Assembly (NCBI GenBank): GCA_017531845.1
Contig: JAFXKI010000003.1
Span: 200,354 to 264,353 of the forward strand
Source: Opitutales bacterium
GTDB taxonomy: Bacteria; Verrucomicrobiota; Verrucomicrobiia; Opitutales; UBA953
Length of the DNA stretch: 64,000 nt
Direction: 5' to 3'
The first letter of the stretch is position 1; every line of letters begins with the position of its first letter. Shown here piece after piece: positions 37,796 through 54,886 of this stretch. Under the pieces are notes generated by a model. The model made no database searches and was not told the DNA's origin. It saw nothing but the letters and a program-made list of their open reading frames with translations. The position numbers were made by a program, and so were the translations under genes.

Positions 37796-39070
37796 AAGAA
37801 TTTTGAGAGCGATGGCGTCTGCAACAAGGAGTCCTTGTTTTGTCGGACGCCAAATATTTTCGGGAATGCCGGATTCCAAGTAACCGGCTTCTCGTAAATC
37901 TTTTGCCAAGGCTGGCAAACGCGTTCCCGCGGGAACGCCGAAGCGTTGCGAAAGCTCGGACAAGTCAAAGCCTTCCGCCAAGCGCAAACCGAAAATGATC
38001 GCATCTTCAAAAAGCTGCGCGGCAGAAAGTGTTTCGATTTCTTCATGCGCGGAAACACCATCGGTTATTTTTTCCAGCCACAATGCAAGGTTTGCCGGAT
38101 TTTGAAAACGCTTTCCGCCACACTGCGATGCCGCCGCCGGACCGAAGCCAAGCCATTCCGCCATTTTCCAAGTATTGGAATTATGAATACATTTTTTCCC
38201 GTCGCGCGCATGATTGGCAACTTCGTATTGTTCGTATCCTGCAGATGAAAGTTTTTCCCAAGTTTTCAAGTAAAGTTCCGCTTCCCGCTCCGAAGATTTT
38301 TCTTCCGGATTATATTTTCCGGATTTTTTCAAACGAGCCAAAAGCGGCGCATCTTTCTCCAAAATCAGGCAATACGCGGAAAGATGCTCCGGTGAAAGTT
38401 TTATAGCCGTTGCCAAATCGTTTTCCCAGCGCAAGTGATTTTCCCCGGGAACGGCAAAAATCAGGTCAAAATTCACGTTGTCAAAACCCGAGGAGCGAAT
38501 CATTTCGTAAGCGGAAAAAATTTGTTTCGGAGCGTGGCGGCGCCCGAGAAGCGAAAGCGTTCCCGCATCAAACGACTGTACGCCGAGCGAGATCCGGTTT
38601 ACGCCGCTGTCGCGCAAAACGCGCAATTTGTCAGGCTTTACCGTTCCCGGAGCGAGTTCGACAGTCCATTCCGCCGGTGCGTTCCCGCCGTTTGCCCGCA
38701 ACAGCATTTTCGCCAAGCGGGAAAAATTCCCGGCAGAAAGCACTCCCGGAGTACCGCCGCCGACAAAAAAAGTTTCCGCCGCACGCGGGAACGACACGAG
38801 CGTGAGCTCCTTTTCAACCCCGGAAAGCCAGGCTTCCACCGAGGCTTTCCTCGGTTCTTCACGGTAAAATGCGCAGTAATCGCACGCGCTCCCGCAAAAC
38901 GGCACGTGAACGTAAATCCCCAGCGATTCCGCGTTCCCGTTCCGGTGCGGAATAGTGCTCTGTTTCGGAAAAATCTTCACTCGGGCATTTTCGACTTCCG
39001 CTTCACGAAACACAAATTGAAATTTAACGGAGAAAAAAGAGCGGGCGTGTTCCTTTTTTAAAAATTGCAA
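37781..39070 (-). CDS. hemW: HemW-like radical SAM protein (heme chaperone)
   Basis: Radical-SAM protein related to coproporphyrinogen dehydrogenase; HemW binds and delivers heme rather than making it. It has YVHVPFCGSACDYCAFY with CX3CX2C followed by Phe, the HemW pattern (HemN has a fourth Cys there). GGGTPGVLSAGNF, VNRISLGVQSFD, FDLIFAVPGE and HNSNTWKMAEWLGFGPAAAS follow, and a C-terminal HemN_C winged helix. The first 45 residues before LGIYVHVPFC are atypical; a GTG at 38980 is an alternative start. Divergent from the acyltransferase/ligase gene. Confidence 0.88.
   Translation of the reverse strand: MQFLKKEHARSFFSVKFQFVFREAEVENARVKIFPKQSTIPHRNGNAESLGIYVHVPFCGSACDYCAFYREEPRKASVEAWLSGVEKELTLVSFPRAAETFFVGGGTPGVLSAGNFSRLAKMLLRANGGNAPAEWTVELAPGTVKPDKLRVLRDSGVNRISLGVQSFDAGTLSLLGRRHAPKQIFSAYEMIRSSGFDNVNFDLIFAVPGENHLRWENDLATAIKLSPEHLSAYCLILEKDAPLLARLKKSGKYNPEEKSSEREAELYLKTWEKLSSAGYEQYEVANHARDGKKCIHNSNTWKMAEWLGFGPAAASQCGGKRFQNPANLALWLEKITDGVSAHEEIETLSAAQLFEDAIIFGLRLAEGFDLSELSQRFGVPAGTRLPALAKDLREAGYLESGIPENIWRPTKQGLLVADAIALKILEIRN
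37921..37938. repeat. Perfect 18-bp palindrome of the octamer inside hemW
   Basis: GCGTTCCCGCGGGAACGC reads the same on both strands. In the HemW frame it encodes GVPAGT. Confidence 0.9.
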
Positions 39071-39091
39071 AAAACCGCTAAAATTTTCAAA

Positions 39092-41422
39092 ATGAGCGGC
39101 ATGATTTATCCCTTACTCCTCGCAATCCTCATTGTTTTGTGGATTATTTCCGGAATCTATTTCAAACGGTATTCCAAATTCCGTTATGAGGCCTCGTGGT
39201 TCTACGCATTTTTCCGCCCTATTTGTATTATTCTCTGCGCACTGTGTTACCGCCGCCGCACGCTCGGCGAAGGCAATATTCCCTCGACCGGCGGTTGTAT
39301 CATTATTGCCAACCACATGTCCTACGCGGACGTCGTGTGCCTCGGACTCGCCTGCCCGCGCCCCTTGCGCTACGTCTCGTGGTCCGGGCTTGAAAAACAT
39401 TTTCTTCTGCGCGTTCTCATGCGCGCGATGAATACGATCCCGATTTCTCCCGCGAATGCGAAGGACGGCATGAAAGCCGCCGTCGATGCCGTAAAATCCG
39501 GGCAAGTCGTTTGCATTTTCCCGGAAGGCTGCATGACGCGCAACGGAAGCCTTCAGCCGTTTATGGGCGGTTTTCAGGTGGTTGCACGCAAAGCGGACGT
39601 TCCCGTCGTTCCCGCGTATATTGACGGGCTTTGGTATTCCATTTTCAGCTATCGCCGCAAAAAATTCATTTGGAAAAAACCGCGAATTTCCCGTCTTCCC
39701 GTAACGATTGCTTTTGGCAAACCTTTCAAAATGGGGAAGCGCGAAGGCGAAAAAACTTACCAACAAATGCGCTCCATCGTGCTTGAACTCGGCACGAAAG
39801 TTTTCTCCGCTCGCGAAGAATTGAAAGGACACCTTGCCGCAACGCTGACAGATGCTTGCGCCCGCAGACCGTTTAAAACGGCAATTATCGACCGTTCCGT
39901 CGGGCGTCGCACCATGTCGCGAGGCATTCTTTTTGCCGCGTCCATGTGCCTTGCGCATCGGTTTAAAAAGGAACTCCACGAGCGCCGTATCGGGCTCGTG
40001 CTTCCTCCCGGGCTCGCCGGCATGGTGGCGAACTACGCCTGCACACTCGCCGGTAAGATTCCTGTCAATTTGAACTTTACGCTCGGGCGCGCCCAACTCG
40101 AATCCTGCCTCGCCCGCGCGAATATCAAAACCGTCATCACGGTCGGCGCGATGAAAAAGCAACTCAACGACCGCTTTCCGGATTTTCCGTGGCCGGACTG
40201 CCAAATTGATATTTTGGATGAAATCAAACAACTACCGAAGCTCAAGCTTCTCGGCATCTTCGCGATGACGGTCCTGCTTCCGTCTTTTGCTCTGAAAAAG
40301 ATTTTCTCAATTCCCACGAAAGGCGGTTCTGAAGAAGCCACCATTCTCTTCACCAGCGGAAGCTCCGGAATGCCGAAAGGTGCCGTGATTTCCCACAAAA
40401 ACATTCTCGCCAACTGTGCCCAGATTGACGAATACGACGTGTTGCCGCCCAACACGCGTCTGCTCGGAAATCTTCCGATTTTTCACAGCTTCGGCTACAC
40501 GGTTCAACTTTGGTTCGCGCCGACAAGCGACGAAGTGCTCGCTGTTTCCACGCCTTCTCCGCTTGATTTCGCAAAAAATCTTCAGGTCATCCGCGAAGAA
40601 CGCTGCACCGTCCTCCTCAGCACGCCGACCTTCTTGCGCAATTATCTGAAAAAGGCTCCGCCGGAATACTTGATGACCGTCGATCTCGTTGTCGGCGGTG
40701 CCGAAAAAACACCCGCCGGCTTCGCGGAAGCGTGGGAAGAAAAATTCTCGCTCGCGCCTACGCGCTATCTCGAAGGCTACGGCATGACAGAAGCGTCTCC
40801 GGTCGTTGCCGTAAACAAGCCGGACGTCGTCGAACGCGCCACCGGGAACATACACCGCGGGATGAAGAAAGGCTCAGTCGGCGTGCTTTTCCCCGGCATG
40901 AACGCCAAAGTTTGCCATACCGAAACCGGAGAAGTCCTGCCCTACAATGAACCCGGAATGCTCTATCTTAAAGGTCCGAACATTTTTGAAGGCTACATTA
41001 ACGACGAAGGCGTTCCCGTTCCCGTAACGGACGCCAAGGGTTGGTACGAAAGCGGCGATATTGTAGAAATGGACAAATACGGGTTCATTTCCATCAAAGG
41101 GCGCCTCTCCCGCTTTTCCAAAATCGGCGGCGAAATGGTGCCTCACGGAAGTGTCGAAGAGGCAATCCAGGAAATTCTCAACTTGAGCAACGAAACCTTA
41201 CAACTTGCGGTTGCCGGACGTCCGGATCCGCAAAAAGGCGAAGCGCTCGTTATCGTTACGACCATCGAAAATCTCGATGTTCAGGCACTCGGGCGTAAAC
41301 TTGCCGATGCCGGCTTCCCGAATCTGTGGATCCCGCGCGAAGTCAAAGTCATCCCGGAAATGCCGGTTCTCGGCACAGGAAAACTTGACATCAAATCGCT
41401 TTCCGACATCGCAAAAGCTTAA
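39092..41422 (+). CDS. Fused acyltransferase / acyl-ACP (acyl-CoA) synthetase, Aas-like
   Basis: Probably recycles lysophospholipid by activating a fatty acid and acylating the sn-2 position. The 776-residue protein has an N-terminal membrane helix, a PlsC domain (NHMSYAD at 74-80, FPEG at 143-146) and an adenylate-forming domain (TSGSSGMPKG at 421-430, EGYGMTEASP, then the C-terminal catalytic lysine in GTGKLD). E. coli Aas has the same order; the LplT-like flippase domain found fused in some homologues is absent. Start at the ATG of MSGMIYPLL, not the TTG nine codons upstream. Confidence 0.88.
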   Translation: MSGMIYPLLLAILIVLWIISGIYFKRYSKFRYEASWFYAFFRPICIILCALCYRRRTLGEGNIPSTGGCIIIANHMSYADVVCLGLACPRPLRYVSWSGLEKHFLLRVLMRAMNTIPISPANAKDGMKAAVDAVKSGQVVCIFPEGCMTRNGSLQPFMGGFQVVARKADVPVVPAYIDGLWYSIFSYRRKKFIWKKPRISRLPVTIAFGKPFKMGKREGEKTYQQMRSIVLELGTKVFSAREELKGHLAATLTDACARRPFKTAIIDRSVGRRTMSRGILFAASMCLAHRFKKELHERRIGLVLPPGLAGMVANYACTLAGKIPVNLNFTLGRAQLESCLARANIKTVITVGAMKKQLNDRFPDFPWPDCQIDILDEIKQLPKLKLLGIFAMTVLLPSFALKKIFSIPTKGGSEEATILFTSGSSGMPKGAVISHKNILANCAQIDEYDVLPPNTRLLGNLPIFHSFGYTVQLWFAPTSDEVLAVSTPSPLDFAKNLQVIREERCTVLLSTPTFLRNYLKKAPPEYLMTVDLVVGGAEKTPAGFAEAWEEKFSLAPTRYLEGYGMTEASPVVAVNKPDVVERATGNIHRGMKKGSVGVLFPGMNAKVCHTETGEVLPYNEPGMLYLKGPNIFEGYINDEGVPVPVTDAKGWYESGDIVEMDKYGFISIKGRLSRFSKIGGEMVPHGSVEEAIQEILNLSNETLQLAVAGRPDPQKGEALVIVTTIENLDVQALGRKLADAGFPNLWIPREVKVIPEMPVLGTGKLDIKSLSDIAKA

Positions 41423-41439
41423 GGAAATCTCTTAATCCG

Positions 41440-41473
41440 AAAAAAAGACAGGCGTTCCCGTCTGTCTTTTTTT
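41440..41473 (+). terminator. Terminator of the Aas-like gene with the octamer in its loop
   Basis: AAAAAAAGACAG pairs with CTGTCTTTTTTT. The 10-base loop is GCGTTCCCGT. The U-run lies on the plus strand, 18 bases after the stop. Confidence 0.85.
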
Positions 41474-41538
41474 GTCTCGCGAAATCTCCGCACGTATCTG
41501 CCGAAACAAGGATTTTCGTGCTTTTTTTGAAAATTTCC

Positions 41539-41566
41539 TTGTCGCGTTCCCGCAGAAGTTTAGACT
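41539..41566 (+). promoter_or_regulatory. Candidate promoter for aspS
   Basis: TTGTCG and TAGACT boxes are 16 bases apart, 25 bases before the ATG. The spacer contains a CGTTCCCG octamer. Prediction by eye only. Confidence 0.35.
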
Positions 41567-41590
41567 TGGCGGCTTTCACGTTTAAATACA

Positions 41591-43384
41591 ATGTTGCGCA
41601 CACATACTTGCAATTGTTTGACGACTGCCGATGCCGGTAAAAAAGTCACTCTCATCGGCTGGGTCGATACCGTTCGCGACCTCGGCGGCGTTCGTTTCGT
41701 TGACCTCCGCGACCGCGAAGGCATTACGCAAATCGTTTTCAACCCCTCCAATCCCTCGGTTCACGAAATCGCCAAAAATCTCAAATCTGAAAGCGTAATC
41801 GAAGTCACGGGAACGGTTACTCCCCGCGAAGCCGAAACAATTAACGAAAAACTCGCGACGGGTACGATTGAAATTGTCGCCGAAGAAATCACCGTGCACA
41901 ACGTTTGCGCCCCGCTTCCCTTCCCGATGGAAGACGACAAGGCGGATAAAGTAAACGAAGATCTGCGCCTTTCTTATCGCTACCTCGACCTGCGCCGCCC
42001 CCGCAACCTCAACCTTATGCGCATGCGAGCCAAGGCGGGGCATGCAATTCGCAACTACCTTGACGAACAGGCATTTGTCGAAGTCGAAACACCGATTCTC
42101 TTCAAAAGTACACCGGAAGGAGCACGCGAATTTCTCGTGCCGTCCCGCTTAAATCCCGGGCAGTTCTACGCTCTTACGCAATCTCCGCAACAATACAAGC
42201 AAATGCTGATGGTTTCGGGTATTGAACGCTATTACCAGATGGCAAAATGCTTCCGCGACGAAGATTTGCGCGCCGACCGCCAGCCCGAATTTACTCAGGT
42301 CGATATCGAAATGTCCTTCATCGAACGCGAGGATATCTACGCGCTCATCGAAGGTATGCTCAAACGCGTTTGGAAAGACGTGCTCAACGTCGATATCCCG
42401 ACCCCGTTCCCGCGCATGCCGTATCAGGAAGCGATGGATCGCTACGGAGTAGACAAGCCGGACACACGCTTTGCGATTGAAATCACGGATTTCACGGAAC
42501 TTTTCAAAAATTCCGCGTTCAAAGTTTTCAACACCGTCGCCAACACCAAAGGATGCGTCGTTCGCGCCATCAACGCGAAAGGTCTTGAAGACATCACCCA
42601 GGGTGAACTCACGAACCTGGAAACCATCGCCAAAACACTCGGAGCTAAAGGACTTGCCTTTATTAAGGCCGCAAACGGCGAATGGAAATCCCCGATTCTT
42701 AAATTTTTCTCCGAAGAAGAAAAAGCCGCGCTCAAGGAAAAGCTTAACATCGAAGACGGCGACATCGTCTTCTTTGCGGCAGCTCCGTGGGAACAAGCTT
42801 CTGCCATTCTCGGACGCATCCGCCTCGAAGCAGCAAAACTCCTGCAAGCTCGCGGACGCCTCGAAATTCCGGCTGACAAATACAATTTCCTCTGGGTTAT
42901 CGAGTTCCCGCTGATGCTCTGGGACGAAGAACAAAATCGTTTCGTTTCCGCACACCACCCCTTCACCGCTCCCGTCAAGGAAGACGTGCCGCTCCTCGAA
43001 ACCAATCCGCACGCCGTTCGCGGACAACACTACGACATCGTACTCAACGGCGTCGAGCTCGGCGGCGGGTCCATTCGTATCCATAATCCGGATATGCAGA
43101 AAAAAGTTTTTGAAGACGTTCTCAAAATCCCGGCAGATGTCGTCGAAACACGATTCGGCTACATGCTTAAGGCGTTCAGCTACGGAGCACCGCCGCACGG
43201 GGGGATTGCACTCGGGTTCGACCGGCTCGTTACCATGCTCGCAGGGCGCACTTCGATTCGCGACCTTCTCGCGTTCCCGAAAACACAACGCGGACAGGAT
43301 TTGATGGCACAATGCCCGTCCGCCGTTACGCCACGTCAACTCAAGGACGTTCACATCGACCTGCGAGACGAAGAGCAACTCTAA
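41591..43384 (+). CDS. aspS: Aspartate-tRNA ligase
   Basis: Charges tRNA-Asp (possibly also tRNA-Asn if the enzyme is non-discriminating). The 597-residue bacterial-type AspRS has an N-terminal OB fold (GKKVTLIGWVDTVRDLGGVRFVDLRD split at the loop), class II motif 1 around FVEVETPIL, motif 2 CFRDEDLRADRQPEFTQVD, the inserted GAD domain, and motif 3 GIALGFDRLVTML. Followed by an octamer-containing terminator. Confidence 0.96.
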   Translation: MLRTHTCNCLTTADAGKKVTLIGWVDTVRDLGGVRFVDLRDREGITQIVFNPSNPSVHEIAKNLKSESVIEVTGTVTPREAETINEKLATGTIEIVAEEITVHNVCAPLPFPMEDDKADKVNEDLRLSYRYLDLRRPRNLNLMRMRAKAGHAIRNYLDEQAFVEVETPILFKSTPEGAREFLVPSRLNPGQFYALTQSPQQYKQMLMVSGIERYYQMAKCFRDEDLRADRQPEFTQVDIEMSFIEREDIYALIEGMLKRVWKDVLNVDIPTPFPRMPYQEAMDRYGVDKPDTRFAIEITDFTELFKNSAFKVFNTVANTKGCVVRAINAKGLEDITQGELTNLETIAKTLGAKGLAFIKAANGEWKSPILKFFSEEEKAALKEKLNIEDGDIVFFAAAPWEQASAILGRIRLEAAKLLQARGRLEIPADKYNFLWVIEFPLMLWDEEQNRFVSAHHPFTAPVKEDVPLLETNPHAVRGQHYDIVLNGVELGGGSIRIHNPDMQKKVFEDVLKIPADVVETRFGYMLKAFSYGAPPHGGIALGFDRLVTMLAGRTSIRDLLAFPKTQRGQDLMAQCPSAVTPRQLKDVHIDLRDEEQL

Positions 43385-43410: not shown

Positions 43411-43452
43411 AAAAATGCGCTTCCGAATTTATTTCGGGAACGCATTTTTTTT
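43411..43452 (+). terminator. Terminator of aspS carrying an octamer
   Basis: AAAAATGCGCTTCCGAA pairs, with mismatches, with TTTCGGGAACGCATTTTT. Eight Ts end the element on the plus strand. Confidence 0.75.
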
Positions 43453-43513
43453 ATTTGGATAAAATGAATCTGCCCTTGATAAAAACAGGCAGGGACGGCA
43501 AAATACCCCTATA

Positions 43514-44164
43514 ATGAAAGACATTGCCATTTACGGCGCAGGCGGCTTCGGACGGGAAACCGCCTGCCTGATTAGGGAAATCAACGAAGTTTCGCCGACG
43601 TGGAACTTCGTCGGTTTCTTCGACGATGGCATTCCCGCGGGAACGCAAACACCGCGCGGCAAAATTCTCGGCGGACTGGACGCACTCAATTCGTATAACG
43701 GAGACCTCGCGCTCGTTTTTGCCATCGCCGCCCCGAAAACCCTGAAAACGCTCGTTGAAAACATCCGAAATCCGAACATCGAATTCCCGAATCTCATCGC
43801 TCCGGATGTGCATTTCCGAGACCGGAATTCCGTGACGATGGGGCGCGGAAACATCATCAACACCCGATCGGCAATTTCCTCTGATTGCGTTTTCGGCGAC
43901 TTTAATCTGAGCGTTTTCGACAACGTTTTCGGACACGATTCCCGAATCGGCAACTTCAATGTTTTTTTCACGGGAACACGCATCAGCGGAAACGTAAAAA
44001 TCGGCGACGAAAACATTTTCGGCGCAAGCTCCACGGTTTTACAAAATCTCAAAATCGGCAACGGGAACACACTTGCCGCCTCAAGTCTGCTCGTTACGCC
44101 GATCGGCAATGACGCTTCCTGCATCGGCGTTCCCGCGACCAAATTCAATTTCAAAAAACAATGA
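43514..44164 (+). CDS. NeuD/PglD-type sugar O- or N-acyltransferase
   Basis: Left-handed beta-helix acyltransferase. The 216 residues have an N-terminal Rossmann-like region (IAIYGAGGFGRETACLI, FVGFFDDG) that binds a nucleotide sugar in the family, then hexapeptide repeats (TMGRGNIINTRSAISSDCVFGDF, KIGDENIFGASSTVLQNLKIGNG). It overlaps the next gene by 4 bases (ATGA) and opens a seven-gene cassette. It may transfer the acyl group made by that cassette from ACP to a sugar; this is inference from context. Confidence 0.82.
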   Translation: MKDIAIYGAGGFGRETACLIREINEVSPTWNFVGFFDDGIPAGTQTPRGKILGGLDALNSYNGDLALVFAIAAPKTLKTLVENIRNPNIEFPNLIAPDVHFRDRNSVTMGRGNIINTRSAISSDCVFGDFNLSVFDNVFGHDSRIGNFNVFFTGTRISGNVKIGDENIFGASSTVLQNLKIGNGNTLAASSLLVTPIGNDASCIGVPATKFNFKKQ

Positions 44165-44394
44165 ACTTCGACAGCTTTATCGAAAAAATCGCCTCGTTAT
44201 TCGAGGAAACGCCCGCTGCGGAACTGACTCCGCAGACGCGCTATAAAGAGCTTCCGGATTGGACTTCGCTCGTTGCGCTTTCACTGATCGTCCTCGCGTT
44301 TAACGAATTCGAATCAACGATTTCCGGCGACGACATCGAAGCCGCGGGAACGCTCGGAGAACTTTTTGAACGCGTCAAAAAAGGAGCCGCCTAG
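44161..44394 (+). CDS. Acyl carrier protein, divergent (first ACP of the cassette)
   Basis: Small acidic four-helix carrier of 77 residues. The attachment serine is probably S36 in LPDWTSLVALSLI; WTS replaces the usual DSL, as in specialised carriers outside fatty-acid synthesis. It overlaps the NeuD-like gene by 4 bases and ends directly before the SDR start (TAGATG). It is distinct from the second ACP at the end of the cassette, so two carrier-bound intermediates may exist. Confidence 0.8.
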   Translation: MNFDSFIEKIASLFEETPAAELTPQTRYKELPDWTSLVALSLIVLAFNEFESTISGDDIEAAGTLGELFERVKKGAA

Positions 44395-45153
44395 ATGGAA
44401 AATTCTCCGTTTTCGCTTGTCGGAAAAAATATTCTGGTAACCGGGGCTTCGTCCGGAATCGGGCGCGCTTGTGCTGTAGAATCCGCGAAACTCGGCGCAA
44501 AGATTTTGGCAAGCGGGCGCGACGAAGAACGCCTTGCGGAAACGCTTTCGCAGGTTTCGACCGAAGGCTCAACCGCCGTTTCTGCTGATTTGCTGGAGTT
44601 CGATTTTTGCAAAAAAATTTCCTCCGCCGTTCCCGCAGACGAGCCGCTCGACGGCATTGTCTTTTCGGCGGGAATGAATCGCCTGCTTCCGGTCGGATTT
44701 ATCGGCGAGAAGGAATTTGCCGCCGCGATGCGCGTCAACGCCGAAGCCCCGCTTATGCTGGTTCAAACATTGTTGCGGGAAAAGAAAATTAAACGCGGTG
44801 CATCGATTGTTTTCATTTCGTCGATTTCCGGCGGAAACGTCGTTTCGCCCGGCGCGGCGGTTTATTCCGCGACAAAAGCGGCGGCGGACGCGCTAATGAA
44901 AACGATGGCTCTTGAACTCGCCGCTAAGCAAATTCGCGTCAACGCAATTTGCCCCGGTGCCGTCGAAACCAAGATGAATGCGCTTGCGGCAATTTCAGAG
45001 GCTCAAAAAGCCGAAGCGGGAAAACGCTATCCGCTCAAGCGTTTCGGCAAGCCGGAAGAAATCGCCTACGCTGCCGTCTACCTGCTTTCCGATGCGGCGG
45101 CATGGACCACGGGAACGCGAATCGTCATCGACGGAGGATTTACCCTGCTTTAA
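44395..45153 (+). CDS. Short-chain dehydrogenase/reductase (FabG-like)
   Basis: NAD(P)H-dependent oxidoreductase. The 252 residues show GASSGIG at 17-23, ISSISG, the YxxxK pair Y157/K161, and CPGAVETKMNA. Closest in style to 3-oxoacyl-ACP reductases. Within the cassette it would reduce a ketoacyl-ACP made by the KASIII enzyme encoded 2 bases downstream. Confidence 0.86.
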   Translation: MENSPFSLVGKNILVTGASSGIGRACAVESAKLGAKILASGRDEERLAETLSQVSTEGSTAVSADLLEFDFCKKISSAVPADEPLDGIVFSAGMNRLLPVGFIGEKEFAAAMRVNAEAPLMLVQTLLREKKIKRGASIVFISSISGGNVVSPGAAVYSATKAAADALMKTMALELAAKQIRVNAICPGAVETKMNALAAISEAQKAEAGKRYPLKRFGKPEEIAYAAVYLLSDAAAWTTGTRIVIDGGFTLL

Positions 45154-45155
45154 AA

Positions 45156-46220
45156 ATGGCGCAACTTCAATTCAGCAATGTCGGGATTCGCGCACTCGCG
45201 GCGTGCGTTCCCGCGACTGTTTCAAAAAACGAGGATGCTCTTCGCGATGTCGTTCCCGCAGACGAAATCGAGAAAACGATTCACGCTATCGGGATTCGCG
45301 AAAAACGTATCGCGTCGGCAGAAACATGCGCTTCCGATTTGTGCTTTGCCGCTGCTGAAAAACTTTTTGCCGACAATCCGGAAATTTCACGCGAAAGTAT
45401 CGACGTTTTGCTCTTCATGAGCCAAACCGGAGATTTCAAAATTCCTGCGACTGCGCCGATTTTGCAACGCAAACTCGGACTTTCTCAAAACTGCGCGGCG
45501 ATGGATTTATCTCTCGGATGCTCCGGTTATGTTTATGCTCTTTCTGCAGCATTTGCTTACGCAAATTTGCCAACCGTTAGGCGCGTTCTTCTGCTCGACG
45601 GTGAAACTTTTTCTAAGATTGTTAATCCTCGAGATCGCGTGAATGCGCCGCTTTACGGCGACGCGGGAACGGCAACGCTCATCGAAAAATCCGAAACCTT
45701 CGGAGCCTCGTATTTCGTTCTAAAAACAGACGGAGGCGGCGAAAATGCCGTGAAAATTCCTGCCGGAGGGTGCCGCGTTTCCGCTACGCCGGAAACGCTC
45801 TCCGAGAAAACGGCACCGGACGGGAGCATTCGTTCCGATTGCGAAGTTTTCATGAACGGCATGGACGTTTTCAATTTCGCAATTCGAAGCGTTCCCGCCG
45901 TAATGAAAGAAACCGCTACCCTCGCCGGATTCTCTCCGGAAGAAGCCGGAGGAATCGTTTTTCACCAAGCGAACAAAATGATGACCGATTTTCTTGCCGC
46001 ACGCATGAAAATTCCCGCCGGAAAAATTTTGTATTCATTAAATAAATACGGAAACACAAGCTCCGCTTCGATTCCTCTGACAATTTCCGAATGCGGGGAA
46101 AAACTTTCTTCGCGAGACCGTGTTTTGCTTTGCGGGTTCGGTGCCGGACTTTCGTGGGCGTCGGTTGCTCTTTCTCTCGTCGGGACAAAAATCTCTCCGC
46201 CGGCAATCTTTAAAAAATAA
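45156..46220 (+). CDS. 3-oxoacyl-ACP synthase III-like (KASIII/FabH-type)
   Basis: Thiolase-fold condensing enzyme. The 354-residue protein keeps the catalytic triad C122 (LSLGCSGYVYAL), H270 (VFHQANKMM) and N300 (NKYGNTSSAS), so it should be active. An insertion around residues 180-235 (ENAVKIPAGGCRVSATPE) distinguishes it from housekeeping FabH. It joins an acyl-CoA or acyl-ACP starter to a second carrier-bound unit. Its place between an SDR and the FkbH gene points to a dedicated short pathway. Confidence 0.87.
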   Translation: MAQLQFSNVGIRALAACVPATVSKNEDALRDVVPADEIEKTIHAIGIREKRIASAETCASDLCFAAAEKLFADNPEISRESIDVLLFMSQTGDFKIPATAPILQRKLGLSQNCAAMDLSLGCSGYVYALSAAFAYANLPTVRRVLLLDGETFSKIVNPRDRVNAPLYGDAGTATLIEKSETFGASYFVLKTDGGGENAVKIPAGGCRVSATPETLSEKTAPDGSIRSDCEVFMNGMDVFNFAIRSVPAVMKETATLAGFSPEEAGGIVFHQANKMMTDFLAARMKIPAGKILYSLNKYGNTSSASIPLTISECGEKLSSRDRVLLCGFGAGLSWASVALSLVGTKISPPAIFKK

Positions 46221-46226
46221 ATCAAA

Positions 46227-46643
46227 ATGAAGGTTTCCGATTTCAAAATTCATCACGTCGGCGTTGCAGTCTCCGATATTCATTCTGCTGCGAGTGTATA
46301 TCGAGAAAATGGCTACCTTTGCACTGAGCCTGTTTTTGATCCGATTCAAAACGTCAATATTTGTTTTGCAGAAAAACCGGACGAACTCAGAGCCGAGCTG
46401 ATAGAGCCGGCGAGTGAAAACTCTCCGGTTTCCGATGTTCTGAAAAAAAACGGCGGCAATCCCGAAGTTTACCATATCTGCTATTCTGTTCCGGATATTG
46501 AGCAAGCGATTTCCGCTCTTCGCGAAGAGCGTTGGCTCCTTGTAAAACCGCCCGTTCACGCCGTTGCTTGCGGGAACGCGAAAGTCGCTTTTCTTTATTC
46601 TCGTGAAGCCGGACTAATCGAGCTTTTAGAAGAAAAATCGTGA
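46227..46643 (+). CDS. VOC/glyoxalase-fold protein (methylmalonyl-CoA epimerase-like)
   Basis: The 138-residue protein has two beta-alpha-beta-beta-beta repeats with possible metal ligands: HHVGVAVSD, the Glu in AELIEPA, YHICYSVPD and IELLEEK. Epimerase or lyase activity on an acyl thioester is plausible from this pattern. The stop overlaps the GTG start of the FkbH-like gene (GTGA). Confidence 0.78.
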   Translation: MKVSDFKIHHVGVAVSDIHSAASVYRENGYLCTEPVFDPIQNVNICFAEKPDELRAELIEPASENSPVSDVLKKNGGNPEVYHICYSVPDIEQAISALREERWLLVKPPVHAVACGNAKVAFLYSREAGLIELLEEKS

Positions 46644-48199
46644 GGCTTTTTGTTTTCAGGAACGCGACGCTTGAACCGTTTTTCCCACGAGAAGAAACGG
46701 AGTTTTCCGGTTACGGCGATATTGCACGCGTTCCCGAAAATGCGGAAAAAATTTGCTGGTTTTACACGCTCCCGCCGGATGTTTCTCCGAAAGACGGGCA
46801 GCCGCTCATTGACGATTTTTTGCAAAAATTACGACTCGTCTTGCCTCGCGTTCCCGCGGACAAAAGGCTTGAGCTGACACGCCTCGCGTTCCCGCAAAAT
46901 CCGTCGCTTGTTCTGGCAGACACGCGCCTGCATGATGCGATTCATTTTTATAACGCCGAACTCGAAAAAATTGCGCGGGAACGTACGAACACCGAAATCT
47001 CAAGCGCGCCGGACTTCGCACCCGATTGGCGCATGTGGTTTCTCGCGCAAATGCCGTTTTCTCCTGCCCAAAAACGAGCAGAAAAAAATCCGCCTCGCGT
47101 TCCCGCTGTCCGAAAAAAATGCATCATCCTGGATTGCGACGACACGCTTTGGGGCGGCACGCTCGGGGAAGACGGATTTTCCACGCTTAAAATCGGTGGG
47201 GATTTTCCCGGAAACGCTTTTGCGTTTTTTCAAAAAAAATGCGTCGAGCTCGCCGAAAGCGGAATTATTCTCGCGATTTGTTCCAAAAACAATGATGCGG
47301 ACGTGCGCGAAGTTTTTGAAAAACATCCCGCGATGATTTTGCGGCGGGAACACATTTCCGCGTGGCGAGTCAATTGGAATGATAAGGCGGAAAATATTCG
47401 CCAAATCGCTGACGAGCTCAATATCGGCTTGGATTCGCTTGTGTTCGTCGACAATGAGGCGCGGGAACGCGAGCGCGTTGCCTCGGCGTTCGGAGGTATT
47501 GTCGCGACACCGGAATTTCCGCGCCGTGCTTACGAACTTCCCGCATTTTTTGAAAAACTCGTCGATGAATTTTTCCGTTGCGAAAAATTGACCGCCGAGG
47601 ATTTGTCGAAAACGCAACAATACCGCGACGCTGCCGAACGCAGCAAAGCCGCGCGGAATTTTTCCTCACTCGAAGATTACATTGCTTCGCTCGAAATCCG
47701 CCTTCGCGTCGCGCCTGCAAATGATTTTTCGCTCCCGCGCTTGGCTCAACTCACGCAAAAAACCAATCAGTTTAATTTGGCAACGCGGCGGCGCACGGAA
47801 GCGGAATTGCGAGATTTTCTTGTTTACGGGAACGTCGTTTTCTCGCTTTCGGTTGCGGATAAAATCGGAGATCTCGGCATCGTCGGCGAAGCGGAAATTT
47901 CATTTTTCTCAGACAAAAAAATCGCCCGCATCGAAAATTTTATGCTGAGTTGCCGGGCACTCGGACGCGGCATTGAAACCGCATTCGCTCAAAGAATTCT
48001 TTGTGTTTTGCGGGAACGCGGCGTCGAAACCGTTTTTGCGGAATATTTGCCGACGGCAAAAAATGCGCCCTGCAAAGATTTTCTTTCATCTCTCGGATTT
48101 GTTTCCGGGGAAAATTCTTCTTCGTCTTTTCGCTTGAATTTGCGGGAACGCGATGCGATAAAAATCAATCCGATTTACCAATTTGTATCCGATGAATAA
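46640..48199 (+). CDS. FkbH-like HAD-IIIC protein (glyceryl-ACP synthase type)
   Basis: FkbH-family enzymes load a glyceryl unit from 1,3-bisphosphoglycerate onto an ACP and remove its phosphate. The 519-residue protein has an N-terminal domain of about 150 residues, a HAD-IIIC domain with D165 and D167 (CIILDCDDTLWGGTLGEDG), CSKNNDADVREVFEKHPAM and FVDNEARERERV, and a C-terminal GNAT-like domain (LTQKTNQFNLATRR, AEISFFSDKK, LSCRALGRGIE). It starts at GTG, overlaps the VOC gene by 4 bases and the second ACP by 8. Confidence 0.87.
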   Translation: MRLFVFRNATLEPFFPREETEFSGYGDIARVPENAEKICWFYTLPPDVSPKDGQPLIDDFLQKLRLVLPRVPADKRLELTRLAFPQNPSLVLADTRLHDAIHFYNAELEKIARERTNTEISSAPDFAPDWRMWFLAQMPFSPAQKRAEKNPPRVPAVRKKCIILDCDDTLWGGTLGEDGFSTLKIGGDFPGNAFAFFQKKCVELAESGIILAICSKNNDADVREVFEKHPAMILRREHISAWRVNWNDKAENIRQIADELNIGLDSLVFVDNEARERERVASAFGGIVATPEFPRRAYELPAFFEKLVDEFFRCEKLTAEDLSKTQQYRDAAERSKAARNFSSLEDYIASLEIRLRVAPANDFSLPRLAQLTQKTNQFNLATRRRTEAELRDFLVYGNVVFSLSVADKIGDLGIVGEAEISFFSDKKIARIENFMLSCRALGRGIETAFAQRILCVLRERGVETVFAEYLPTAKNAPCKDFLSSLGFVSGENSSSSFRLNLRERDAIKINPIYQFVSDE

Positions 48200-48422
48200 C
48201 GACATTTCCCCTCGCCTCGAAAACGTTTTTAAAACGACACTCGGTATCAAGACCGTTCCCGCCGGGCTTTCGCAAAAAAATTGCGAAGCGTGGGATTCCG
48301 TAAACCACTTGAATCTGATTCTTGCGCTGGAAGCGGAATTCGGCGTTACGTTCGAGCCGGAAGAAATTGCCGCCATGCAGGATCTTTCCGCCGTCGAAAG
48401 CCACATCCGCACAAAAATTTAG
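48192..48422 (+). CDS. Acyl carrier protein (second ACP of the cassette)
   Basis: The 76-residue carrier keeps the canonical site S36 in EAWDSVNHLNLILALEAEF, typical of carriers served by FkbH. The ATG lies inside the end of the FkbH-like gene, so the pair is translationally coupled; this is the likely acceptor of the glyceryl unit. It ends the cassette, with the convergent cupin gene 48 bases away. Confidence 0.85.
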   Translation: MNNDISPRLENVFKTTLGIKTVPAGLSQKNCEAWDSVNHLNLILALEAEFGVTFEPEEIAAMQDLSAVESHIRTKI

Positions 48423-53529: not shown

Positions 53530-54051
53530 TTAATCGCCTATAGCATTCTTTACAGCGTGATAATTCCATTTATATCTTTTATCAAATACAGACTCTTTGT
53601 ACCACATTGAGACATGCATTCCTTGAGAGCGAAGAATATCTGGACATTTATCCTTATCAACGGAAGGTCCATTATACAAAACAACGATTTTCAATCCGTC
53701 TCGAAGAGCCTTCTCACACTCGAACTGAAGATAACTTCTGTAATCTACACTACCCCCTCTAGCGCAAAATTGCCCCCAACTATTATAACTTTGACAGTAC
53801 CGACAACTTCCTGCTGCTAAATATTTCGTCTTATTTCCGACGATAAGCACAAACGTCTTCGAAGCATTGAGACGCAATGACAACGATTTTTTTATATTAC
53901 AGTTTAAGCTGTCATCTTTTGCTTGTGTCATCTCGTGCGCATCAGGAAAAGACAAACTCCACGACTCGCTATCATTCCAATAATGCAGTTGATCTATCGC
54001 ATTACTATCACCCGTCCAATCTGCCGCTATATATACTTTCGTTCTTCGCAT
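53530..54051 (-). CDS. thsB: ThsB-like TIR-domain protein (type II Thoeris sensor)
   Basis: TIR-fold enzyme of the DUF1863/ThsB group. In Thoeris such proteins sense phage infection and turn NAD into a signal; type II systems use histidine-ADP-ribose. The 173 residues show VYIAADW, the DAHE block, LRLNASKTFVLIVGNKTK (strand B signature) and a helix with E111 and E113 (YLQFECEKAL), one of which should be the catalytic glutamate. A cysteine cluster C83/C86/C96 is inserted. It starts one base after the thsA stop. AT-rich and free of the octamer. Confidence 0.85.
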   Translation of the reverse strand: MRRTKVYIAADWTGDSNAIDQLHYWNDSESWSLSFPDAHEMTQAKDDSLNCNIKKSLSLRLNASKTFVLIVGNKTKYLAAGSCRYCQSYNSWGQFCARGGSVDYRSYLQFECEKALRDGLKIVVLYNGPSVDKDKCPDILRSQGMHVSMWYKESVFDKRYKWNYHAVKNAIGD

Positions 54052-54052
54052 T

Positions 54053-54886
54053 TTAGATTTCTTTCAGCTTGAAAAGGTTTACCCTATTTTTCTTAGACAC
54101 ATCAAGCACTATGGATATTTTCGCCCCATTCTTAAGACGAACACGACTAATTTTAAATGACCAAATGAGCGACTCAAGAAGTTCTTGCTCCGTAACAGTC
54201 AAATGATTTCTAAATCTTGTTATCCCGGATCCAAGAAGCGGGACAACAATATCATTCCCACTATAAACCCGATCAATCTCTTCCCAAAAAAAGAGAAGGA
54301 ATCTCAAATAATCTTCCATTTCTAAAAAAGCTCTATTGCATTCATCAAATCTAGAAAATGCCGTTAATAAAAAATCATCATGGATAACGATTGAGCCAAG
54401 TTTATATCGAATCTTTTTTCCTTCCGATCGTGTTTTATTCTTCTCCACGGCTCGACCTTTCATTTCCTTGTAGATCTTGTCATCCACCGCGGAAACATCT
54501 TTAACAAATTCCTTGAGGAAAACGCCATTGAGTGTTTTTCGTGAGATAATTTTATCATCCGCTCGAGTATCAAAATACTCATTAAACGCAATAACTTTCA
54601 ACCCGGCTTCCTTAAATATATTTCCGAATTTAATCTGTAATTCAGTGGAATTGATGCTCAATGTGATTTTCCTCAAATAATTTGCTTGTATCCACAAATA
54701 TACATACGCACATGCAAGAGCTACAACAAACGACACTGCAGCATAGCTCTTCCACGAATCTGGAACAGACCAGAAAATCAAGACAAGCGATAAAAAAAGG
54801 CTCAAATAGGATAAGCAATTAAAATACTGTTTTACTAGTTTTCTATCAAAAAACGGAACTCTCATAATAATTTTCCTAAGTAACAC
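54053..54886 (-). CDS. thsA: ThsA-like effector: two membrane helices plus macro-type domain (type II Thoeris)
   Basis: Membrane effector thought to bind the TIR-made ADP-ribose signal through its macro domain and damage the inner membrane. The 277 residues begin with two hydrophobic helices (about 21-41 and 47-67), then the DUF6430/ThsA-macro domain: LQIKFGNIFKEAGLKVIAFN, EYFDTRADDKIISRKTLNGV, HDDFLLTAFSRFDECNRAFL, VVPLLGSGITRFRNH (the ligand loop) and QELLESLIWSFKISRVRL. An inner ATG at codon 8 is a possible start. One base from thsB and four from the upstream small gene. Strongly AT-rich. Confidence 0.85.
   Translation of the reverse strand: MLLRKIIMRVPFFDRKLVKQYFNCLSYLSLFLSLVLIFWSVPDSWKSYAAVSFVVALACAYVYLWIQANYLRKITLSINSTELQIKFGNIFKEAGLKVIAFNEYFDTRADDKIISRKTLNGVFLKEFVKDVSAVDDKIYKEMKGRAVEKNKTRSEGKKIRYKLGSIVIHDDFLLTAFSRFDECNRAFLEMEDYLRFLLFFWEEIDRVYSGNDIVVPLLGSGITRFRNHLTVTEQELLESLIWSFKISRVRLKNGAKISIVLDVSKKNRVNLFKLKEI

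Follow-up and report, generated by a model that had tools for sequence, protein, structure and literature searches.

What is made by a compact set of seven genes that combines an FkbH protein, a β-ketoacyl synthase III (KASIII), two acyl carrier proteins (ACPs) and a NeuD-like sugar acyltransferase? The question is raised by a cassette at positions 43514-48422 of a 64,000-nucleotide stretch of contig JAFXKI010000003.1 (hereafter the window) from an Opitutales bacterium with a genome of 1.69 Mb. Our analyses indicate that the general role of the cassette is very probably glycan N-acylation, and, with good though lesser confidence, that it makes a dedicated acyl-ACP donor with which a nucleotide-activated amino sugar is acylated at its 4-amino group before that sugar enters a surface glycan. 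The likely role is to supply a glycerate-derived hydroxyacyl group as the N-acyl substituent of a surface amino sugar; the acyl structure, the step assigned to the vicinal oxygen chelate (VOC) protein and the acceptor sugar are our proposals. The cassette is most likely a new combination of known parts and not a small-molecule antibiotic pathway. Its genes, which also include a short-chain dehydrogenase/reductase (SDR), are as follows (aa, amino acids):

43514..44164, plus strand: NeuD/PglD/VioB-like left-handed beta-helix N-acyltransferase, 216 aa, with PglD_N and hexapeptide matches.
44161..44394, plus strand: ACP1, 77 aa, carrier motif W-T-S-L with an invariant Ser.
44395..45153, plus strand: SDR, beta-ketoacyl reductase-like, 252 aa, SDR family match.
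45156..46220, plus strand: KASIII, 354 aa, ACP_syn_III match, Cys122-His270-Asn300 retained, placed in the FkbH-linked KASIII clade.
46227..46643, plus strand: VOC metalloenzyme, 138 aa, Glyoxalase_4 match, His10, Glu57, His83 and Glu132 invariant.
46640..48199, plus strand: FkbH, short form, 519 aa, GTG start, TIGR01686, C-terminal GNAT-like domain with R439-x-x-G-x-G.
48192..48422, plus strand: ACP2, 76 aa, canonical W-D-S-V motif.

The seven open reading frames (ORFs) are separated, from gene 1 to gene 7, by -4, 0, +2, +6, -4 and -8 bases, which fits the ATGA, TAGATG and GTGA joints and confirms the near-touching or overlapping genes described in the original prediction, a reading of the bare sequence. 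The set is a real unit beyond chance, because the identical seven genes recur in identical order in four congeners and in several Bacteroidales loci. Within the genus (G000 holds the window; G001-G007 are the other species), the cassette was found in five of the seven other species and is complete in four, three of which carry it at the same site beside cupin and Fic genes; in one further congener it is divided between two contigs. The order NeuD-ACP1-SDR-KASIII-VOC-FkbH-ACP2 is repeated in the Bacteroidales loci L076, L077, L078, L080 and L082 (L-numbers denote individual loci).

The argument for a glycan role comes from the surroundings of these homologues. Among 84,980 species genomes scanned, 80 FkbH loci were found, 45 of which have a short N-terminus like that of the window FkbH, and gene content was counted in the 36 short-form loci that lie outside the genus and have enough flank. 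At least one glycan marker gene was present in 31 of the 36; an ACP2-type ACP occurred in all of them, KASIII in 28, VOC and ACP1 in 27 each, and NeuD in 21. In L076, genes for GT2, EpsG, an acyltransferase, GT2, GT4, GT4 and a sugar-1-phosphate transferase precede the seven-gene set and a LegC-type aminotransferase gene follows it; L077, L080 and L111 (Chryseobacterium jejuense) are arranged similarly, and in L078 and L082 the cassette stands at the border of glycan regions. Gene content, order and motifs are kept and homologues lie in glycan loci; the glycan role is well supported. This neighbourhood survey, a check that the original prediction had proposed, found glycan genes flanking most homologous cassettes and bears out its statement that similar sets occur inside polysaccharide loci, as well as its suggestion of an unusual acyl decoration. 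Its other option, a small metabolite, finds no support, given the NeuD-type sugar acyltransferase and the homologues in glycan loci. Its remark that no glycosyltransferases or flippases lie around the set holds for the identified neighbours in the window and fails for most homologous cassettes; to call the set self-contained is misleading, since most homologues stand within polysaccharide or glycan loci and the enzymes for the acceptor sugar are encoded elsewhere in the genome.

Why, then, does the window lack nearby glycan genes? The genome scatters them, which accounts for this isolation: it encodes a PglF/PseB-like 4,6-dehydratase (L159, 8892-10829), a single PglC/WcaJ-like transferase (L158, 17740-18360), a LegC-type aminotransferase with a WecA-like protein on a contig other than that of the cassette (L059), and glycosyltransferases near contig ends. 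With the dehydratase, the aminotransferase and two sugar transferases of the lipid-carrier kind encoded, the genome can thus make UDP-4-amino-4,6-dideoxy-N-acetylhexosamine (UDP-4-amino-4,6-dideoxy-HexNAc) as acceptor, and this sugar may be the one that is acylated. At L059 (contig 9, 8922-9386), a deletion has left an in-frame fusion of a LegC-type aminotransferase, of which the first ~60 codons remain, with a KASIII reduced to its last ~95 codons; the scar adjoins an intact SDR gene, and the undamaged locus is present in a congener (L062).

As judged from gene content, the cassette appears to be two fused modules, a 3-hydroxyacyl module (NeuD-ACP-SDR-KASIII) and a glyceryl module (VOC-FkbH-ACP), a separable make-up that goes beyond the original prediction. 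In the front module, His141 of the NeuD-like protein (HD motif) lines up with the His conserved in PglD/PglB/VioB structures (4m9c, 4m98 and 7txp, VioB), and the score against TIGR03570 (NeuD/PglB/VioB sugar acetyltransferase) is 122.9 bits, under the cut-off of 160.8, so that we describe the protein as apparently PglD/VioB-like and do not file it in that family. ACP1 found no family match in domain searches and ACP2 a weak one only. The carrier Ser is the sole invariant column across 25 aligned ACPs, which split into two kinds, ACP1 mostly with W-[T/S]-S and ACP2 mostly with W-[D/N]-S; for ACP2, the ATG at 48192 is the most likely start, and not the listed upstream TTG at 48183. KASIII retains Cys122, His270 and Asn300, and its predicted role as a condensing enzyme is supported.

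In the back module, FkbH is the only cassette protein that passes the curated cut-off of its nearest named family (TIGR01686, 249.6 against 146.65 bits). Its HAD-IIIC residues D165/D167, S215, K249 and D271 are intact and invariant in 16 homologues, and the invariant C438-R439-x-x-G442-x-G would fit the pantetheine-binding motif of GNAT enzymes. In the predicted structure (mean pLDDT 79, pTM 0.45, with a poor linker at 126-156), the HAD-containing part matches BF1531 and the C-terminus matches GNAT acetyltransferases. This conservation of the HAD residues and the GNAT-type domain supports the earlier proposal that FkbH and its own ACP may furnish glyceryl-ACP. The VOC protein aligns with VOC enzymes, and its H10, E57, H83 and E132, invariant in 15 homologues, follow the metal-ligand pattern of the family and are taken to be its four metal ligands. 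Its closest solved relatives are a clostridial glyoxalase I and methylmalonyl-CoA epimerases, and its score against the epimerase family TIGR03081 (67.2 bits) lies below the cut-off of 114.95. Over 1.45 Mb of FkbH loci, VOC gave 41 matches, every one of them within 2.3 kb of FkbH.

From these parts a pathway can be proposed. FkbH would take glycerate from 1,3-bisphosphoglycerate, dephosphorylate it and load it onto ACP2, as expected from its family. The glyceryl thioester would next be acted on by VOC at its alpha carbon; an epimerase role is our tentative assignment, which we hold at somewhat less than even. KASIII might then join glyceryl-ACP2 to malonyl-ACP1, a condensation that we judge to fall just short of an even chance, and SDR would reduce the 3-keto group to give a polyhydroxylated C5 acyl chain (3,4,5-trihydroxypentanoyl) on ACP1. 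The NeuD/PglD/VioB-like enzyme would N-acylate UDP-4-amino-4,6-dideoxy-HexNAc, for which the PglF/PseB-like dehydratase and the LegC-type aminotransferase are encoded at other sites of the genome, and a phosphoglycosyl transferase would pass the sugar to a lipid carrier.

Is the FkbH product a substrate of KASIII? When 61 KASIII proteins were placed in a tree, the FkbH-adjacent label needed three changes, compared with 18.7 when labels are shuffled, and 37 of the 38 FkbH-adjacent KASIII proteins fall within one supported clade. Two unlinked KASIII proteins inside this clade come from G004 and G006, both with FkbH elsewhere, and in loci with two KASIII genes (L079, L090 and L105) the clade member is the copy directly upstream of VOC/FkbH. 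Because FkbH-adjacent KASIII proteins form their own clade, condensation with glyceryl-ACP2 is favoured, and this phylogeny suggests that KASIII uses the FkbH product. The full specification, in which KASIII of the FkbH-linked clade takes glyceryl-ACP as primer and malonyl-ACP1 as extender and a 3,4,5-trihydroxypentanoyl amide results on a surface amino sugar, is a possibility that we would not rate as high as even.

The same modules could instead supply two separate acyl donors, with KASIII, SDR and ACP1 making a 3-hydroxyacyl group (e.g., 3-hydroxybutyryl), FkbH, VOC and ACP2 making glyceryl-ACP, and no condensation between them; the NeuD-like enzyme and another transferase would use them, or both would be used alternatively on one sugar. 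Each half does occur by itself: the NeuD-ACP-KASIII-SDR set stands without FkbH in the congener locus L062, beside PglC-like, PglD-like and aminotransferase genes, as well as in Pseudomonas syringae (PMC3927599) and Parabacteroides distasonis, and VOC-FkbH-ACP stands without KASIII in the polysaccharide loci L081, L086, L087 and L114 and in L126 and L139. The halves also recombine separately inside the genus. The distinct KASIII clade and the position of its members in two-KASIII loci speak against this alternative, as does the single acyltransferase gene of the cassette, and we consider it unlikely.

Several points weigh against the pathway with glyceryl condensation and sugar N-acylation. 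The KASIII linkage test drew on loci collected by FkbH and is not independent. NeuD, SDR, KASIII and VOC all fall short of the curated cut-off for the named family nearest to each; therefore, their substrates are not readable from family names. VOC is missing from the KASIII- and FkbH-containing cassettes L079, L084, L088, L103 and L107, and thus its step is not obligatory. The cassette has no aminotransferase that would tie the NeuD-like enzyme to a particular sugar, and no glycan gene adjoins it in its own genome or in the genus members sharing this site. None of the full cassettes has a product of known structure. The contig of L088 is labelled as a Methanofastidiosia archaeon and carries a Bacteroidales-like cassette, together with an aminotransferase that shares 74% identity with the one in G006; the archaeal label is possibly binning contamination.

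Within the genus, the front and back genes have had different histories. Between G000 and G001, identity is 79% for NeuD, 78% for ACP1 and 89% for SDR, compared with 56-64%, 44-45% and 51-53%, respectively, between G000 and G003, G005 or G006, and the pattern is reversed for FkbH (89% for G000-G005, 72% for G000-G001). Since front genes and FkbH show opposite identity patterns, the locus is a mosaic in which the front genes (NeuD, ACP1 and SDR) occur as alleles. Such interspecies exchange of three front genes with the back end retained resembles surface-antigen variation. Immediately upstream, the Aas-like and AspS proteins (39065-43384) are 99% identical to those of G003 (L023), compared with 84% for the neighbouring HemW and 82% for Fic, which suggests a recent recombination tract reaching the cassette edge.

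Losses in the genus raise the question of whether the cassette is a relic, decaying in this lineage after loss of its glycan context like the aminotransferase/KASIII locus on contig 9. G002 lacks FkbH, and G004 keeps only VOC-FkbH with ACP2 nearby and, apart from these, a KASIII whose frame is divergent or broken; the in-frame scar in the own genome and the distance of the cassette from glycan genes would fit the same idea. Against it, all seven ORFs are intact with their catalytic residues, their order is kept in four congeners and the acceptor pathway is present, and we regard decay as improbable.

As to origin, the window holds 190 copies of a genus-specific word, CGGGAACG, where about 2 would be expected, and the whole genome holds 5192 (86 for the reversed word). 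It reaches 5.2-6.6 thousand copies in G002-G006, 1362 in G001 and 546 in G007, does not rise clearly above background in the stretches taken from Bacteroidales and from two further genera of the family, and resembles a DNA-uptake or HIP1-like word. The cassette contains 20 copies of GGGAACG in 4.9 kb, and because this is the normal density of the genus-specific word, recent import is not favoured. No close KASIII was found elsewhere in 388 Verrucomicrobiota genomes, which, together with tree placements, supports the view that the cassette is shared with Bacteroidota. The trees differ on the direction of transfer, the KASIII tree nesting Opitutales among Bacteroidales and the FkbH tree making them a sister clade. 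Plasmid searches returned only relatives of <60% identity, and near relatives in public records include material from goat rectum and water deer rectum.

The identified upstream neighbours of the cassette are a transporter, HemW, Aas-like and AspS genes, and those downstream are cupin, Fic, type I restriction-modification and Thoeris genes. Two weak features precede the first gene:

43421..43439, plus strand: terminator-like hairpin at the AspS/cassette junction, by consensus only; such sites barely exceed the shuffle mean.
43476..43504, plus strand: promoter-like hexamers 5' of the first gene, by consensus only; their regional frequency is not above chance.

The Thoeris pair (53530-54886, minus strand), with a TIR-like ThsB (267 bits) and a macro-domain type ThsA (325 bits), interrupts a type I restriction-modification system, with HsdR-Fic on one side and HsdS/HsdM on the other.

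If the proposed pathway is true, a glycan decoration would be made straight from glycolytic 1,3-bisphosphoglycerate via a polyketide-like step, common to gut Verrucomicrobiota and Bacteroidota. FkbH, chiefly known from polyketide pathways, would be tied to surface-glycan acylation in gut bacteria, and the defined seven-gene unit is suitable for in vitro reconstitution. Literature searches on FkbH in O-antigen or capsule loci returned nothing specific.

How does the cassette compare with known systems? A methoxymalonyl-ACP operon (FkbH, ACP, two dehydrogenases and an O-methyltransferase) was rejected, as the cassette has one SDR and no methyltransferase. A further rival is a small secondary metabolite, tetronate-like or other, of the type made by glycerate-utilisation operons (e.g., tetromadurin mad7/8/16/17/18); the original prediction drew the analogy with tetronate synthesis. 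These pathways share FkbH, a stand-alone ACP and a KASIII-fold enzyme to which the use of glyceryl-ACP is ascribed (PMC7489565; Methylosinus locus L071). However, with L071 as the only query, tblastn gave no significant match in the window for an Agg4-type acyltransferase, an Agg5-type dehydratase or a polyketide source, none for the L071 E2-type acyltransferase, hydrolase or polyketide synthase, and no detectable similarity between the two KASIII proteins, which differ in clade. The cassette has in addition the NeuD-like sugar acyltransferase, SDR, VOC and a second ACP, and its homologues lie in glycan loci. The tetronate pathway was rejected for its different gene content and the dissimilar KASIII, and a product of this kind seems very improbable.

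All four enzyme types of the front half are shared with the viosamine island of P. syringae (vioS KASIII, vioB acyltransferase, vioR reductase and acp), related to the flagellin glycosylation island of P. aeruginosa PAK, for which the proposed product is N-3-hydroxybutyryl-viosamine and in which modified viosamine is lost in a vioR mutant (PMC3927599). That island lacks VOC, FkbH and a second ACP, and is adjoined by aminotransferase, methyltransferase and glycosyltransferase genes. In the window, KASIII, SDR, ACP and a NeuD/VioB-type acyltransferase stand together and a 4-aminotransferase is absent from the locus, being adjacent in Bacteroidales homologues; the acceptor in P. syringae is a dTDP-4-amino sugar, whereas a UDP sugar would be expected for the cassette. 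Acyl modules in P. distasonis capsule loci likewise combine NeuD-type, ACP1-type, KASIII and SDR genes, beside glycosyltransferase, flippase and sugar transferase genes, with an AMP-binding ligase where the cassette has the FkbH-VOC unit. In a Rhodobacteraceae plasmid locus (L070, pSC52_6), ACP, FkbH, MBOAT, a hypothetical protein, VOC and an acyltransferase stand in a row; this locus shares FkbH, ACP and VOC, lacks KASIII and NeuD, and with its MBOAT-type machinery is apparently an O-acylation version of the glyceryl module.

The closest parallels for the back half are pseudaminic acids bearing glyceric acid, in which, as in our reading of the cassette, an FkbH-domain gene or a glyceroyl group is associated with an amino sugar of a surface glycan. 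The flagellin locus of Campylobacter jejuni contains the FkbH-domain gene cj1302, and its pseudaminic acid carries dimethylglyceric groups; one strain that has no dimethylglyceric acid carries cj1302 as a pseudogene, and a second strain, not reported to lack cj1302, also has none of this acid (PMC7099621). In Tannerella forsythia, pseudaminic acid carries a glyceroyl group (Pse5Am7Gra), and the responsible gene has been called elusive (PMC6120980). The acceptor in these two species is a nonulosonic acid, compared with a PglD-type hexosamine for the cassette, and the C. jejuni product is dimethylated. VOC-FkbH-ACP units also occur in pse operons of two metagenome-assembled genomes (MAGs), from Nitrospirae and Eubacteriales (genes marked † were named by eye): L126 has PseG, VOC, FkbH, ACP, GNAT† and PseI, with flagellin† downstream, and L139 has PseB, PseC-like, PseF-like†, FkbH, ACP, GNAT†, VOC, PseI and PseG. 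Together with GNAT, these units are candidates for N-glyceroyl pseudaminic acid synthesis, and FkbH-ACP, often with VOC, offers a concrete candidate gene type for the N-glyceroyl group whose gene has been elusive in T. forsythia (PMC6120980).

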